Assembly (NCBI GenBank): GCA_029859505.1
Contig: JAOUCZ010000012.1
Coordinates: 1-38,209, forward strand
DNA from: Lysobacterales bacterium
GTDB taxonomy: Bacteria > Pseudomonadota > Gammaproteobacteria > Xanthomonadales > SZUA-36
Direction of reading: 5' to 3'
DNA: 38,209 bases
In this document: piece after piece, positions 1,373-29,039 of the stretch
Layout: every line of letters starts with the position of its first letter
Numbering within the stretch: position 1 is the stretch's first letter
Notes under the pieces: generated by a model
Seen by the model: the letters and a program-made list of their open reading frames with translations, nothing else
Databases searched by the model: none
What the model was told of the DNA's origin: nothing
Program-made: the position numbers and the translations under genes

Positions 1373-4300
1373 CTATTCCATCTCTTTGCGCAGCAGTGTT
1401 CTGACTTCCGATATCAACTCTGATTCTTTATACGGCTTGGAAAGATATGCGTTGGCACCCGCTTGCTTGCCCCGGTCCCGATGTTTCTTGCCTGCCCTGG
1501 AGGTGATCATAATGATGGGCACCTTGCGAAGTCTGGCATCGGCACGAACGTGCTCCGCGACCTGGTAGCCGTCCATGCGGGGCATTTCGATGTCAAGCAG
1601 CAACAGGTCGGGTACGCAGTCCTGCATTTTTTCAGTGGCCTCCACGCCATCTCTCGCGGTGATCACTTCAATGTCATAAGCCTCAAGGACACGGGTGGTC
1701 ACCTTACGCATGGTGATGGAGTCATCCGCCACCAGCGCCAAGGTTCTTTTTGGCCGTATATCAATGTTTTCAATGGGTGGTGCGGGGCGTGCTCCAGTCA
1801 GCACGGCCTGTCTGATCAATGGTCCCGCGTCGATGATGATGACAACCTGGCCATCTCCTGTGATGGTTCCGCCAAGAATACCCGGCACACTGTTGATCTG
1901 CGGGCCAACCGGTTTGACGACAATTTCCTTGTGGCCAAGAAGTGCGGACACCCGGAAAGCAGCACGTTGCTCGCCGGATTTGATCATCAGAATCGAGATG
2001 GTGTCTTCACCCAGCGGCGTTGTTGGTTCACCCAATAGCGGTTCCAGGTCAAGAATGGAGTATGACTCCCCGGCGAACTCATAAGCCGGTCTATCATGTG
2101 CCAGCAACTCCTCGTAATCGGCGGGCAGCATCCGCGCAACTCCGGCAACACTGGCGACCGGGATCATATAGGGATGCTCGCCGGCCGTTACGCTAATGAC
2201 CTGCATCACCGCCAGCGTGAATGGTATCCGGATGATGAAAGTACAGCCTTTGCCTTCTTCGGATTCGATCTCTATCGAGCCACCAATCTGTTTGATTTCG
2301 TTGCTGACCACATCCATGCCAACACCACGCCCGGAAAGGGTTGTGACGGTCTTGGATGTGGAAAAACCACTGTTCAGAATGAGTTGCTGTAACTGCTGAG
2401 GTGATCGCTCAGTGTCTTTGTCCATCAAGCCCTTCTCAATGGCGCGCTTCTTAATGGCCCCAAGATCTAAACCGGCTCCATCATCCTCAACACGCACGAT
2501 AAACTCGGTGGCTTCAGCTGCGACGGTTATGCTGATTTGCCCCTCTTCCGGCTTCTTGAGTTTTCGTCTTGCTGCGGGCTTTTCAATGCCATGTGCGATC
2601 GAGTTCCTTAGCAGATGCTCCAGTGGTGTGACAATCCTTTCCAGTACATTACGATCAAGCTGGTCACCACCACCGGTCATACGTAATTGCAGACGTGCGC
2701 GCTTTTTGGTTTCCTTGGCCGAGGTGCGTATGATCCGGCGCAGGCGCGGAGCGATGGTACCGAAATGCACCATTCGGGTTTGCATCAATCCTTCCTGCAG
2801 GTCTTTGCTGACCCGGGATTGCTGCACAAGCAGGGCTTCGGATTTGCGCGCCGAGGTGTCGAGTAATTCCTGTAGATTTAATAGATCTGAAACAGACTCC
2901 GTCAGGCTGCGCGATAATTGTTGCATGCCTGAGAAACGGTCCATTTCCAGTGGATCAAATTCTTCCGTGCCATCCGGCGCTTCCTGCTGATAGCGCGAAC
3001 GTATCTGGGTTTCAGTTTCAATTTCAAGTTTGCGGAACTGCTCCCGTATACGTGAGACGGTTACATCAAACTCCTTCAAATGGTCGCGCATCTGCCCGAC
3101 TTGTTGTTCAAGATGAGAGCGGAAAATACTGATTTCGCCAGCTGAATTGACCAGTGAATCAAGTAGGTCTGCATTGACACGGATCTGTTGTGAACCTGCG
3201 GTCTCCGCACTTGGTTCTTCACTGAACTCGGGTTCGCTCACTGGAACTGCAACATCAAGTATTTCCTGCAGTTCTTCAGGTGCAGGATCGATTGTAACCT
3301 GCTCCTGGAATGTTGCTTCAGGCTGCGTAGGCAATGCGGACAGGTCTTCGACTTGCTGGTTAAATAGTTTTAAAACATCTCCAGCCTGTGGTATTTCTCC
3401 CTGGCTGGCTTGCTCAGTCCACACGTTCAAACGGTCGCAACCCTGCTCCAGTACTTCAATTGCAGAAACCGTTGGGGACAGCGATTGGCCAGCAATACGC
3501 TCCAGCAACGTCTCCATGGAATGGCTGAGGTCGCCCAGGGCGTTGACACCAGCCATGCGAGCACCGCCTTTAAAGGTATGTATCTCACGCTGCAGGTTCT
3601 GGACGATTTCCAGGTCTGAAAGGTCGTCGCGCCAGGTATTCAGAAGTGAGTCACAACGCTCCAGAACCTCCGTTGCCTCTTCAAGGAAGATGCCCAGTAT
3701 CTCGCTGTCCACCTGTTCAATTGCAGCTTCTGCCGGCTCTTCTGCTTCTTCTTCTACTTCTTCTACTTCTTCTACTTCTTCTACTTCTTCTACTTCCTCT
3801 TCTACTTCTTCTACTTCCTCTTCTACTTCTTCTACTTCCTCTTTTACTTCTTCCTCTTCTGCCTCGCTGTGCTCTTCAATTGCTTCGGTGATTTCTGCTG
3901 CCTGTTCGCTTTCAGAAGTTTCAGGTTCCTGTACGGGCTCTTCCTGCTGTTCCGGTTGTGGAACTTCGTATTCAACTGTCAGAGCAATTAGTTGCTCAAT
4001 CTGGTTTTCCTCATCACCAGCGAGTTCTGCTTCCGGATCGCCTTCATGCACTGCCAGGCATGTTTCAAAGTGAGCCAGGCTGGTGGCAACCATCCACATT
4101 GCAGTGTCGCTGAATGCCTTCCCACTCTGGCGTTGTGCTTCAAGAAAACCTTCCAGTGTTTTGGCGACGTCCGATTCCCTGCCCAATGGATCGAGAGCGG
4201 TGGTTCCGGCAATAGTATGAATGGCGATAACTTCGTCTTCGTTTGCAGTACTGTTTCGGTCCCTTGAGATGCGCTCCATCAGGCCAGACAGAACAGCAAG

Positions 4301-6646
4301 CTTTTCAGTCAGCTCCTTACTTACCAGTTCTTTCAGAGTAGGTTTGGTAGCCTTCTCAGTGGCGCCGGCAGCTGTTGGTTCCGTTTTGGTAACGGCATCA
4401 CTTGGCAACAGGACAGCGATCGAAGGCGGTAAGGCCTCGCCCAGGGCTGTCCAGTCAGGTGGATTACCAGCGGCAATGCTGTCTGCCTGCAGGGAAAGCG
4501 CTTCAATCGCTTTGGGGGTCAGTTCCGAAGGCTCCTGTTTTAGTCTTTGCTGCATGGCAGGTAGTACAGCCTCGGCCAGGCGGACTACACGTACAACATC
4601 TTCAACTGATTCGATGCTGCCTTCCAGCAAGTGATTGAGAAGCTCTTCGATGTGCCAGGAAAAATCACCCAACTCATTCGCACCCACCATGCGCCCACTG
4701 CCCTTAAGTGTATGGAATCCACGGCGAATTTCGGTTAACAGCTCGGAATTTTCCTGATGTTGCATCCACTGAGGAATCCGCTCACCTAACATTGAGGCAA
4801 CGGTTTCGTATTCCTCAAGGAATACATCCAGCAATTCAGGGTCAATTGTCAGTGGTTGTAATGTGCCACCGTCATCAGGTTTGCGTTCTGTTTGCCTGGG
4901 TGTTGGTACTGCCGGAGTTACCTTGACCGCTTCCATTTCCCCAACTGGCAGTCGCTCAAGGCGTTCTTTGAGTATTTCGAAAAATCGCTGACGATTGTCC
5001 TGGTGATCACGACAGCCAGCAAGGTAGAGCTCGAATGCCGCAACCGCATCGGTGACGATTTCCAGTTTGTCTGGCTCTACGGCAGACTCCGTCCTTGCGT
5101 GACGCAGCAGGTTGTCGAGTGCATTGCGTAATTTCAGTGCCAATGATGCCGTTTCTGATTCACCAATTAATTCCAGGGCGCCTGCAATATGTTCCATTGG
5201 GCTGTTAAAATCTGCGTCAGAATCACCTTTGAAATGACTACGTACACCATCTTGAACGTGGTGGAGGCTGGTAACGGTCTCGCCCAGCAAATGCGTACGG
5301 ATTCGGCGTATCTCGTGCCCGGGCAGATCAATATAGGCCTTTTCCTGGTCTGCCAGAAGTGGCTCACCAAGGGTGGTGATCTGTTCTTCCAGAACGGATT
5401 CAACCCGTATCAGTTCCCCCGCTAACTCCATCAACACTGATTTATCTGAATCAACGTCGGAGTCTGATTCGGGGTTTTCGTCGACTGCGAATGCCGGTAT
5501 CAGTTTCTCGATGGATTGAGAGGAATCACCCAGGCCCATCATTTTTAAAGTGTCTTTGAGCCTCAGCAGGGCTTCATGACTCTGTTCTCGACTTTCGGGT
5601 CTTATTTCACCGGTCCGCAACTCGAGATCAAGAGCATCCTTGACCAGGGAGAACTCATCTCGAACTGCTGCACCCAGTGATATATATAGCTCGCGATTGC
5701 GGCCCGTGACCGCTCCGCGGGCACGAATCAAAACGTCGCGATCGGGTACAAGTTCCTGAAGCTGGAATCGTTCCCGGAGTTGATCCACCGCTTCACTACC
5801 CGGCTTAGCCTGTGCGATATGAAACAACAGGGCCTGGGAGAGGGCGTTGGCCGATTCAGCATCGGTGGTCTCTTCGCCACCCTCAGATAGAGTCTTGATA
5901 ATCAGGTGCAAACGGGCAAAAAGGCGCCGCAGGTGCATATCATTATCGGTAACACCATCAAGTAAGCCGCCAATCACTTTTGCTGCGATCCACCACAGGC
6001 GCCGCAGGTCTATTCTATTGAGGCGATGGTGCAGTGTTTCACATACTGAGAGCAGCGGTGACAGCCGTTCAATGTCCTGTTGTTGCTGCAACCAGCGAAG
6101 CAGGGCGCTTTCCCACTGGCGGCGCATACGCTGGGCAAATTCGCCAAAGGGTTCATCGAAGACTGGCTGGTGCTCACCTGCGCCGATTTCCAGTTCCGGT
6201 AACGGTACATCCAGGCTGGGGGCGAACAGTGTGGCTTCGGATACAATGTTGGCATTGTAAGCAGCACGTAACTCGTTAATTACCGGCAACAATAAAATGG
6301 GTAGATCATGGTGACCGGCTTGTAAGCGGTCCAGGTATGAAGGTACCACAACGATGGCATCCATCATGGCGCCATATGCTTTTTGCCGGTCGCGGATATT
6401 TGAGTCCCTGAGTTCATCGCAAACCGAGATCATTTCTTCGATCACGAGTGTGGCACCTTGCAACATCAAAGCCTCGAAGGTGTACTTTAACTGAAGCAGG
6501 TGCTCTGCGGTATTTTCGACAGCGTCACTATTACTGGCACTGTTGGCAATGTGTTCAACCTGGGTGCGGATCTGGTTCAGGTGTTTGTCCAGATCCGGGC
6601 GAACCCAGGTCAATACAGTGCTTACATTTGAGCCTTCTAGTAACAT
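1373..6646 (-). CDS. chpA: Hybrid CheA-type histidine kinase ChpA/PilL with multiple Hpt domains, CheW-like domain and C-terminal receiver
   Basis: 1757 aa; Hpt motifs FHTLKGSGRM and IHTFKGGARM, HATPase motifs (LLRNSIAHGIEKP, VEDDGAGLD, GRGVGMDVV), CheW-like region and C-terminal REC (VADDSITMRKVTTRVLE...LLDIEMPRMDGYQ...MITSR). Confidence 0.95.
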   Translation of the reverse strand: MLLEGSNVSTVLTWVRPDLDKHLNQIRTQVEHIANSASNSDAVENTAEHLLQLKYTFEALMLQGATLVIEEMISVCDELRDSNIRDRQKAYGAMMDAIVVVPSYLDRLQAGHHDLPILLLPVINELRAAYNANIVSEATLFAPSLDVPLPELEIGAGEHQPVFDEPFGEFAQRMRRQWESALLRWLQQQQDIERLSPLLSVCETLHHRLNRIDLRRLWWIAAKVIGGLLDGVTDNDMHLRRLFARLHLIIKTLSEGGEETTDAESANALSQALLFHIAQAKPGSEAVDQLRERFQLQELVPDRDVLIRARGAVTGRNRELYISLGAAVRDEFSLVKDALDLELRTGEIRPESREQSHEALLRLKDTLKMMGLGDSSQSIEKLIPAFAVDENPESDSDVDSDKSVLMELAGELIRVESVLEEQITTLGEPLLADQEKAYIDLPGHEIRRIRTHLLGETVTSLHHVQDGVRSHFKGDSDADFNSPMEHIAGALELIGESETASLALKLRNALDNLLRHARTESAVEPDKLEIVTDAVAAFELYLAGCRDHQDNRQRFFEILKERLERLPVGEMEAVKVTPAVPTPRQTERKPDDGGTLQPLTIDPELLDVFLEEYETVASMLGERIPQWMQHQENSELLTEIRRGFHTLKGSGRMVGANELGDFSWHIEELLNHLLEGSIESVEDVVRVVRLAEAVLPAMQQRLKQEPSELTPKAIEALSLQADSIAAGNPPDWTALGEALPPSIAVLLPSDAVTKTEPTAAGATEKATKPTLKELVSKELTEKLAVLSGLMERISRDRNSTANEDEVIAIHTIAGTTALDPLGRESDVAKTLEGFLEAQRQSGKAFSDTAMWMVATSLAHFETCLAVHEGDPEAELAGDEENQIEQLIALTVEYEVPQPEQQEEPVQEPETSESEQAAEITEAIEEHSEAEEEEVKEEVEEVEEEVEEVEEEVEEVEEVEEVEEVEEEAEEPAEAAIEQVDSEILGIFLEEATEVLERCDSLLNTWRDDLSDLEIVQNLQREIHTFKGGARMAGVNALGDLSHSMETLLERIAGQSLSPTVSAIEVLEQGCDRLNVWTEQASQGEIPQAGDVLKLFNQQVEDLSALPTQPEATFQEQVTIDPAPEELQEILDVAVPVSEPEFSEEPSAETAGSQQIRVNADLLDSLVNSAGEISIFRSHLEQQVGQMRDHLKEFDVTVSRIREQFRKLEIETETQIRSRYQQEAPDGTEEFDPLEMDRFSGMQQLSRSLTESVSDLLNLQELLDTSARKSEALLVQQSRVSKDLQEGLMQTRMVHFGTIAPRLRRIIRTSAKETKKRARLQLRMTGGGDQLDRNVLERIVTPLEHLLRNSIAHGIEKPAARRKLKKPEEGQISITVAAEATEFIVRVEDDGAGLDLGAIKKRAIEKGLMDKDTERSPQQLQQLILNSGFSTSKTVTTLSGRGVGMDVVSNEIKQIGGSIEIESEEGKGCTFIIRIPFTLAVMQVISVTAGEHPYMIPVASVAGVARMLPADYEELLAHDRPAYEFAGESYSILDLEPLLGEPTTPLGEDTISILMIKSGEQRAAFRVSALLGHKEIVVKPVGPQINSVPGILGGTITGDGQVVIIIDAGPLIRQAVLTGARPAPPIENIDIRPKRTLALVADDSITMRKVTTRVLEAYDIEVITARDGVEATEKMQDCVPDLLLLDIEMPRMDGYQVAEHVRADARLRKVPIIMITSRAGKKHRDRGKQAGANAYLSKPYKESELISEVRTLLRKEME
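3746..3865. repeat. Short tandem repeat (9/12-nt units, cttctactt-type) encoding (E)EEV repeats of the ChpA linker
   Basis: Plus strand shows repeated ttctacttc/ttcctcttctac units; minus-strand translation EEEVKEEVEEVEEEVEEVEEEVEEVEEVEEVEEVEEE. Confidence 0.9.
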
Positions 6647-26982: not shown

Positions 26983-27603
26983 ATGAACCGGGAATACGTT
27001 CTGGCCAGTGGCAACAAGGGCAAGTTGCGCGAAATTATGGCCATGCTCGACCCTCTGGGCTTTGTCGTTCGCCCGCAAAGTGACTGGCAGGTACCGGAGG
27101 CAGCAGAAACAGCCAGCACGTTTATCGAGAACTCACTGATCAAGGCTCGCCAGGCCACCGGACATACCGGATTGCCCTGCATTGCCGATGACTCCGGACT
27201 GGTGGTGCCAGCGCTCAATGGTGAGCCGGGTATATATTCTGCCCGTTATGCCGGGAGCGACGCGAATGATGAGGCCAATAATCGTAAACTCCTTTCTGAA
27301 CTTTCCGGCAAACAAGGTGCGGCGCGTGATGCTTATTTTTTTTGCGCCATGGTCCTTGTGCAATCGGTTGATGACCCTGCACCATTATTGGCGACCGGGC
27401 AATGGCATGGACGCATTCTGTTGACAGCACAAGGTGATGGCGGTTTTGGTTATGACCCCCTGTTTGGTATCAGCGGTAGTATGGATGATGGTAGCTGGCA
27501 GTCTGCAGCTGAACTGCTTCCAGAAGAGAAAAGCCAAGTCAGTCATCGTGGACAGGCACTAAGGGAACTGGTGAGACAGTTAAGTGTATTGTCAACCCTA
27601 TAA
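26983..27603 (+). CDS. rdgB: XTP/dITP diphosphatase (RdgB/HAM1)
   Basis: 206 aa; YVLASGNKGKLREIMAML...TFIENSLIKARQATGHTGLPCIADDSGLVVPALNGEPGIYSARYAG...GDGGFGYDPLF. Confidence 0.98.
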   Translation: MNREYVLASGNKGKLREIMAMLDPLGFVVRPQSDWQVPEAAETASTFIENSLIKARQATGHTGLPCIADDSGLVVPALNGEPGIYSARYAGSDANDEANNRKLLSELSGKQGAARDAYFFCAMVLVQSVDDPAPLLATGQWHGRILLTAQGDGGFGYDPLFGISGSMDDGSWQSAAELLPEEKSQVSHRGQALRELVRQLSVLSTL

Positions 27604-27870
27604 GGTAGAATCAGTGGTTACCAGAATGTTCAGCACAAGGCATGCTCGCGCAGGCATAGTGGTTCTACGTCAAGCGAATGTACCAAGAGTAGGCACCTCC
27701 AGGTGACGCCGTGATGGACATTCTGGTAACCACCCGTAGGGCGAGCACACAAGCTGTCATCTGCTGCGTTAACGTTTCTCGATATAGAACCACTATGTCT
27801 TCAAACCGCTGCCTTGCAGCTAACAGCTTGTGAACTCGCTGATCCTGCCTTATAGGGCTGACATTACACT
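27583..27870. repeat. ~288-bp intergenic element with 32-bp imperfect terminal inverted repeats and internal nested inverted repeats (MITE-like or structured element)
   Basis: Left arm 27583-27614 agtgtattgtcaaccctataaggtagaatcag versus reverse complement of 27839-27870 agtgtaatgtcagccctataaggcaggatcag (28/32). Internal inverted repeats: 27614-27629/27718-27733 (16/16), 27655-27667/27785-27797 (13/13), 27741-27763/27817-27839 (19/23). Confidence 0.8.
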
Positions 27871-27881
27871 AGGTGAGAGGA

Positions 27882-29039
27882 ATGACCGGATTATTACGTA
27901 ACCCGCCTTTAAGCCTGTATGTTCATATGCCATGGTGTGTAAGCAAGTGCCCCTATTGTGATTTTAATTCACACACCAAACCGGATGAGTTCCCTGCAGA
28001 TGACTATATCCGGGCCCTGGTAGCAGACCTCGAACAGGACCTTCCGCTGGTCTGGGGGCGTCCGGTGCAGAGCATTTACTTTGGAGGCGGTACACCAAGC
28101 CTGTTTTCAGCTGATCTGATCGCAGATTTTCTTTCAGCAGCGAGAGCACGGCTGGATGTAAGACCCGATGTGGAAATCACGCTGGAAGCCAATCCCGGGA
28201 CGATTGAGCATGATAGTTTTAGCGCCTATGCCCAGGCCGGCATCAACCGTGTTTCCCTGGGTGTACAAAGTTTTGACGACAAACTGCTTAAGTCCATCGG
28301 ACGTATTCATGGCCGGGGTGAAATAGAGCAAAGTTTAAAATCTTTGAGTTCAGCTGGAATCACCAATTTCAATATCGACCTGATGTTTGCACTTCCCGGC
28401 CAGAGTCCTGATCAATCGAGGCACGATATTGAATTGGCGATCAACGCCGGGCCGTCCCATATCTCCTTTTACCAGTTAACCATTGAACCCAATACGGCGT
28501 TTGCAGCTCAACCACCCGTGTTGCCTGTCGATGATATGGCCTGGGATATGCAACAAAGCGGTTTAGACCTTCTTGAAGCCAATGCGTATGGACAATATGA
28601 GGTATCCGCATTTGCGCAATCTGAAAAGCAAAGCCGTCATAATGTGAACTATTGGCGGTATGGTGATTTTCTGGCTATTGGTGCCGGGGCACATGGAAAA
28701 ATTACAACAGCGGCTGATGGAAGGGTGCAACGCTACGCCAAGCACCGGCACCCCAGGCGCTATTTGCAGGGCTTGCAAAATGGGGACTGGCGGGCGGAAA
28801 CGCGTGTGTTGAGCGACGAGGAGCTTGTTTTCGAGTTTTTTCTCAATCAATTGAGGCTCAAACAAGGGGTCACTATCGATGACTTCAGCTTGCGCACCGG
28901 TCTGCCTTGGAGTGTGGTTGAATCACGTGTAAACACAGCCCTTGAAAAAGGCTTGCTGGAGGTTCGTGACAAGCGTGTCTGCCCTACAGACCTGGGGTGG
29001 AGGTTTGTGAATGATACCCAGCAGATATTTTTGCCCTAA
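27882..29039 (+). CDS. hemW: Radical SAM heme chaperone HemW (coproporphyrinogen III oxidase-like)
   Basis: PPLSLYVHMPWCVSKCPYCDFNSHT (radical SAM CxxxCxxC), SIYFGGGTPSL, LGVQSFDDKLLKSIGRIHGRGE. ATG 27882 is preceded by a gagagg RBS-like sequence; the ORF track begins at GTG 27873. Confidence 0.95.
   Translation: MTGLLRNPPLSLYVHMPWCVSKCPYCDFNSHTKPDEFPADDYIRALVADLEQDLPLVWGRPVQSIYFGGGTPSLFSADLIADFLSAARARLDVRPDVEITLEANPGTIEHDSFSAYAQAGINRVSLGVQSFDDKLLKSIGRIHGRGEIEQSLKSLSSAGITNFNIDLMFALPGQSPDQSRHDIELAINAGPSHISFYQLTIEPNTAFAAQPPVLPVDDMAWDMQQSGLDLLEANAYGQYEVSAFAQSEKQSRHNVNYWRYGDFLAIGAGAHGKITTAADGRVQRYAKHRHPRRYLQGLQNGDWRAETRVLSDEELVFEFFLNQLRLKQGVTIDDFSLRTGLPWSVVESRVNTALEKGLLEVRDKRVCPTDLGWRFVNDTQQIFLP

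Follow-up and report, generated by a model that had tools for sequence, protein, structure and literature searches.

What is the symmetrical sequence that separates rdgB from hemW in this member of the Lysobacterales, and how was it brought there? The window (the whole stretch of 38,209 nucleotides that was analysed) was originally predicted to have an insertion at this place in an otherwise tight operon, either a dispersed structured repeat or a mobile element of the non-autonomous kind, and a comparison with relatives lacking the element had been proposed. The junction was read in every same-genus genome where hemW was found. In all eight of these genomes (G001-G007 and G009), rdgB and hemW abutted or overlapped without the element. 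Removal of the 289 nt at 27583-27871 joined AGACAGTTA to GGTGAGAGGAATG, colinear and equal in length with AGAAAGTTGGGTGAGCGTGATG of G007, and TA remained at both edges, which revealed a TA target-site duplication. A single extra A followed the left TA in the window copy. Since the junction was empty in eight genomes of the genus, colinearity was restored without the 289 nt, and TA was duplicated, the element is, as judged by sequence comparison, a mobile insertion, and the prediction of an insertion into a tight operon was borne out. The whole insertion measured 289 nt, and the element proper, with the TA duplications excluded, covered 27583-27869 (287 bp). The features of the locus were as follows.

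26983-27603, plus strand: rdgB (Ham1/ITPase family; PF01725, 192 bits), 3' end replaced by the element (...RQL-SVLSTL*)
27581-27582, no strand: left TA target-site duplication; flanks colinear with the empty junction of G007 once 27583-27871 was removed
27583-27614, plus strand: left terminal inverted repeat, 28/32 against the right repeat, containing the rdgB stop codon (27601-27603)
27614-27733, plus strand (sense plus): left hairpin, module A, with arms 27614-27636/27711-27733
27683-27705, plus strand: 23-nt insertion CCAAGAGTAGGCACCTCCAGGTG in module A, missing from the 266-bp form in the alignment of full copies
27741-27839, minus strand (sense minus): right hairpin, module B, with arms 27741-27764/27816-27839
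27839-27870, minus strand: right terminal inverted repeat, pairing with the left repeat
27870-27871, no strand: right TA target-site duplication, from the empty-junction comparison
27882-29039, plus strand: hemW (radical SAM, HemN_C; PF04055 and PF06969), ATG at 27882

The insertion altered the end of rdgB. The reading frame of the relatives ran up to or into the start of hemW, whereas RdgB of the window lost its last residues, gained SVLSTL and then ended within the left repeat, at a stop codon provided by the element. The claim that the element fills the intergenic space needs one correction: it is not purely intergenic, because the rdgB stop lies inside it. The close overlap of the two genes was lost in the window copy, and the ribosome site GAGAGG upstream of the hemW ATG was retained downstream of the insertion.

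The predicted symmetry was confirmed. The outer arms were complementary at 28 of 32 positions (88%) and were the only matches to the terminal motif in the window, with none in 100 shuffles. Three inverted repeats were nested between them, formed by the arms of the two hairpins listed above and by 27652-27674/27778-27800. Compared with shuffled sequences, the fold reached z values of -10.3 for the plus strand and -10.9 for the minus strand. The inward symmetry noticed earlier at 27655-27667 and 27785-27797 also proved real, as these segments formed the apices of a single hairpin module that is present in two inverted copies. Modules A and B were copies of a hairpin of ~95 nt with the invariant internal loops CAAGGC...AACGC and GGCATAG-loop-CTACGTC. 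In each element, a short linker separated hairpin A from hairpin B, which lay in the opposite orientation, and an outer repeat bounded the pair on either side. Either strand is able to fold into a three-way junction, in which the two hairpins stand head to head within the outer inverted repeat. As predicted, the element held no gene, and no separate frame of at least 80 aa was found inside it among the open reading frames of the window. Elsewhere, at 1373-6646 on the minus strand, the window contained an open frame of 1757 aa.

A search of 100 relatives with the 289-bp query found the element in full in G002, G005, and G007, in diverged form in G009, and as fragments elsewhere. The copies in the sister genomes occupied other loci with identities of 77-86%. 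When aligned, they fell into forms of 266 bp and 289 bp, which differed by the 23-nt insert, and had CTAG-type ends. Their terminal repeats were ~34 bp long with the consensus CTAGTGTASTGTCAMCC, and changes in these repeats were often matched on the opposite side, which is what a folded or symmetrical element should show. G130, a genome in a single contig, carried nine 272-bp elements at unrelated sites; these were 97-100% identical and all had CTAG ends, which indicated that they had moved recently. Length variants that bore additional nested hairpins were also present, as were remnants of 50 bp running from repeat to repeat. The expectation of other copies was thus met in related genomes, whereas the 400-contig draft assembly of the window's own genome yielded only one relic (C240:24049-24145) beside the window copy. 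Together with the absence of genes, the eight empty junctions and the TA duplication, the multiple copies in sister genomes supported the original reading. As separate observations, the ~50-bp remnants at L056:1501-1550 (G005:C1) and G585:C1:2552930-2552980 had the left repeat fused to the right, as if the hairpins had been precisely deleted; five loci (L185, L186, L187, L188, and L189) carried bigger forms of 337-547 bp with extra hairpins inserted within a module; and in G005, the same terminal repeat was found in solitary or short forms with unrelated bodies (L041, L045, L049, L058, and L060).

The hairpin was found far beyond the genus. A covariance model built from 14 modules (R1) kept 32 pairs, 22 of which had double changes, and detected the module in 68 of the 199 genomes of the order. 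A degenerate hairpin pattern matched at least 120 stretches in public genomes; carriers among the matches listed included Wenzhouxiangella, Alcanivorax, Microbulbifer, Ferrimonas, Thioalkalivibrio, Selenomonas, Nitratifractor, Marivirga, Muribaculaceae, Gemmatimonadetes, Acidobacteriota, and an Omnitrophota MAG. In an alignment of 30 diverse hairpin cores (A3), 89.5% of the cells were paired, and the covariation score was 0.681, against 0.186 +/- 0.015 for shuffled and at most 0.174 for slid alignments. The loop letters were fixed in the search pattern, so the conservation of the loops partly reflected the selection of hits; the stem covariation was not so affected. A second model from 30 diverse modules (R2) had hits in 119 of the 399 sampled genomes of the phylum (61 of 213 genera) and none in the remaining 280 at the same threshold. 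In the window, R2 matched module A at 27623-27701 on the plus strand with 32.1 bits, a score lowered by the 23-nt insertion, and module B at 27750-27830 on the minus strand with 71.9 bits (E 4.2e-18), where R1 matched 27742-27837 (minus strand, E 1.4e-19). Many of the hairpin loci L201-L320 lay at contig ends, which implied that short-read assemblies break at the palindromes and that copy numbers from drafts are underestimates.

The borders of these elements were less uniform. Copies in HyVt-560 and Selenomonas had TA boundaries, CTAGTG ends were also found on elements from several phyla and TAGGGC ends on others, and the duplications in the complete genome G585 were mostly TNA, not TA. At L400-L419 of G585, three families shared one hairpin and had different terminal repeats; the duplications of family A were mostly TNA (TTA, TGA, TCA, and TAA), and its copies were frequently positioned directly 3' of stop codons. 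The element was not matched in the phage collection searched, the general hairpin pattern was not found in IMG/VR contigs, and plasmids gave only partial matches, in Photobacterium and Variovorax. Rfam gave no match to 27400-28100 at E up to 1 and none at the gathering score for 18 element-bearing loci.

Wobbles in the stems favoured one strand. The sense-strand stems contained 45 G-U against 7 A-C oppositions, and the genus set contained 53 against 1. Near the core, the ratio was 35:2, whereas at more than 13 nt from the core it was 16:16; part of the G-U excess was concentrated at a few positions. A repeat recognised as a duplex would give roughly equal numbers of both, so selection seems to act on one strand in its folded form (RNA or ssDNA).

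The earlier reader could not name a family for the element; the closest one found was the Correia (CREE/NEMIS) element of Neisseria, which was linked through the shared hairpin. Correia elements are gene-free, intergenic, multi-copy sequences with inverted repeats ending in TATAGTG, TA ends and target duplication, and a stable hairpin, and their transposase is not known (PMC2649163, PMC5039591, PMC2229807). Three contigs of a viral collection that carry the Correia end as described in the literature (PMC2649163, PMC5039591) served as test sequences. Two of them (L321 and L322) were matched over the full model length by R1 (37.8 bits, E 1.7e-7) and by R2 (34.8 bits, E 2.3e-7), whereas L323, a 155-bp Correia form with a known longer insert, was matched by neither. 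The two hairpins had the letters CAAGGC, CGCAG, CAAG, and CAACGC in common, and the Correia apex differed by one inserted base and a G-C/C-G swap. At 35-38 bits, the match is moderate and the kinship remains putative. Like Correia, the window element is gene-free and multi-copy, with inverted repeats, TA duplication, and a hairpin matched by R1 and R2; both have TAGTG-type ends and TA at their borders. The conserved hairpin core of Correia was thus present over the full length of both models, as was its TA target duplication, which was supported by the empty-site comparison and by copies in other lineages. In contrast, Correia consists of one hairpin of ~70-157 bp whose stem is the terminal repeat, whereas the window type, at 266-289 bp, has two inverted hairpins inside an additional outer repeat. 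The 155-bp Correia form contains an insert of 50 bp that includes an IHF site, and the window element a different one of 23 nt. The window element is a relative of CREE and not CREE in the strict sense, because its ends (CTAGTGTASTGTCAMCC) differ from the 26-bp Correia repeat (TATAGYGGATTAA...) and only TAGTG is common outside the hairpin. Processing of Correia transcripts by RNase III is known (reviewed in PMC10969869). By analogy, transcripts across the window element would probably be cut or stabilised at the hairpins, and hemW would be uncoupled from rdgB; processing by RNase III itself is only a fair guess.

The element is very probably a non-autonomous, TA-inserting hairpin transposon (MITE) that belongs, in a two-hairpin form, to a widespread Correia-like family. 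Mobility, dispersal in multiple copies, TA duplication, removal of the final codons of rdgB, cross-phylum conservation of the hairpin, covariation, and the Correia match were all observed, whereas it is an inference that an enzyme encoded outside the element moves it in trans. This inference was drawn because IS630, Y1, and DUF4096 were missing from carriers, no longer element with matching ends was found, and no transposase recurred nearby. The transposase with matching TIRs that the original prediction suggested looking for was not found in the genus, in G130 and its relatives, or in complete G585. No longer elements with matching TIRs were present in the first two sets, and all 33 TIR pairs of complete G585 were at most 282 bp. 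Among 80 named hairpin loci, no transposase recurred beside the hairpins, and the largest cluster of neighbours covered 7 loci with apparently unrelated host genes. The mover, or a host factor that it requires, would probably read one strand in its folded state (RNA or ssDNA), since the hairpin loops and not the terminal repeats were conserved between lineages and the wobbles favoured one strand. A single mover for all lineages was not established, because the G585 duplications were mostly TNA.

An ordinary MITE, generated by internal deletion of one insertion sequence of the IS630 or IS5 type whose transposase acts through the terminal repeats, with the hairpin as a remnant, was considered rather unlikely. 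The ~34-bp terminal repeats agree with such an origin; the TA duplication and CTAG target resemble IS630, and the TNA duplications of G585 resemble some IS5 groups. However, IS630 (PF13358) was missing from most of the carriers tested, among them G000, G002, G007, G009, G071, G122, G166, and G177, and that of G130 had different ends (TTATTAACCCGGC); IS630 was thus rejected as the mover. IS5 was likewise rejected (for the DUF4096 type only), being absent from 19 of 22 carrier genomes. The lack of any longer element with the same TIRs also stands against this origin, and a hairpin that is a mere remnant should not have kept stem covariation and unchanged loops in different phyla. RUP and other IS630-type MITEs likewise have TA duplication, terminal inverted repeats, and no gene, but the window-type repeats were unlike the IS630 ends of G130.

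Movement as ssDNA by a hairpin-reading Y1 (TnpA-REP) transposase, as for a REP/BIME-like or IS200/IS605-type element, appeared improbable. The conserved hairpin with internal loops, the strand-specific wobbles and the insertion beside a fixed dinucleotide fit this mechanism, but Y1 (PF01797) was missing from G000, G009, G062, G122, G157, G176, and G177, mostly genomes with many copies. With 7 of 17 carriers lacking it, one of them 99% complete, Y1/RAYT could not be the universal mover. No orientation bias was seen between the replication halves of G585 (9+/12- against 11+/11-, p 0.76), although the test is weak since most elements have two opposed hairpins. REP/BIME/REPIN sequences with RAYT (Y1) are likewise small mobile hairpins between genes, sometimes in inverted pairs; they are far shorter (20-40 bp), and carry GTAG or CGTC tags (PMC3733652), and several element-rich genomes lacked Y1. 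ERIC/IRU of enterobacteria is likewise a multi-copy intergenic palindrome with TA ends (PMC2229807). Descent from a cis-regulatory element retained vertically at this locus, suggested by a strong fold between co-directional genes, was refuted by the empty junctions of all eight other genomes of the genus that were examined, and with copies at unrelated loci and neither a promoter-like nor a terminator-like site between 27450 and 28000 it is scarcely credible, although the element may have been co-opted locally.

The window element and the hairpins of many phyla would then constitute one widespread Correia-like superfamily of non-autonomous elements, of which the window copy is the two-hairpin variant. 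MITEs and Correia were already known. Neither Rfam nor the open-licence literature searched contained the two-hairpin form or a hairpin family that spans phyla, and a unification in subscription journals is not excluded. To our knowledge, Correia elements have been regarded as a peculiarity of Neisseria, with no known mover since 1988. With a hairpin shared by Correia and many phyla, and found in ~30% of the sampled phylum genomes, the question of the mover becomes testable in non-pathogenic hosts. The shared hairpin is a sign that supposedly separate repeats form one widespread family, and its model lets annotators recognise many unannotated insertions that alter gene ends and operon spacing. 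A bolder reading, offered only tentatively, places the hairpin at the core of a cross-phylum selfish nucleic acid. It would move when one strand in its folded form (RNA or ssDNA) is recognised by an enzyme or host factor that is widely distributed but not yet identified, and Correia and the window element would be two of its local branches. Lineages differ in their outer repeats and even in their target duplication (TA or TNA), as though various transposases could be recruited by the hairpin.

Two IS630-type elements of ~1.1 kb were observed in G130:C1 near 589000 and 848000 (L145 and L148). Both flanks of the former contained perfect repeats of 36-37 bp at a spacing of ~70 bp, resembling a CRISPR array.
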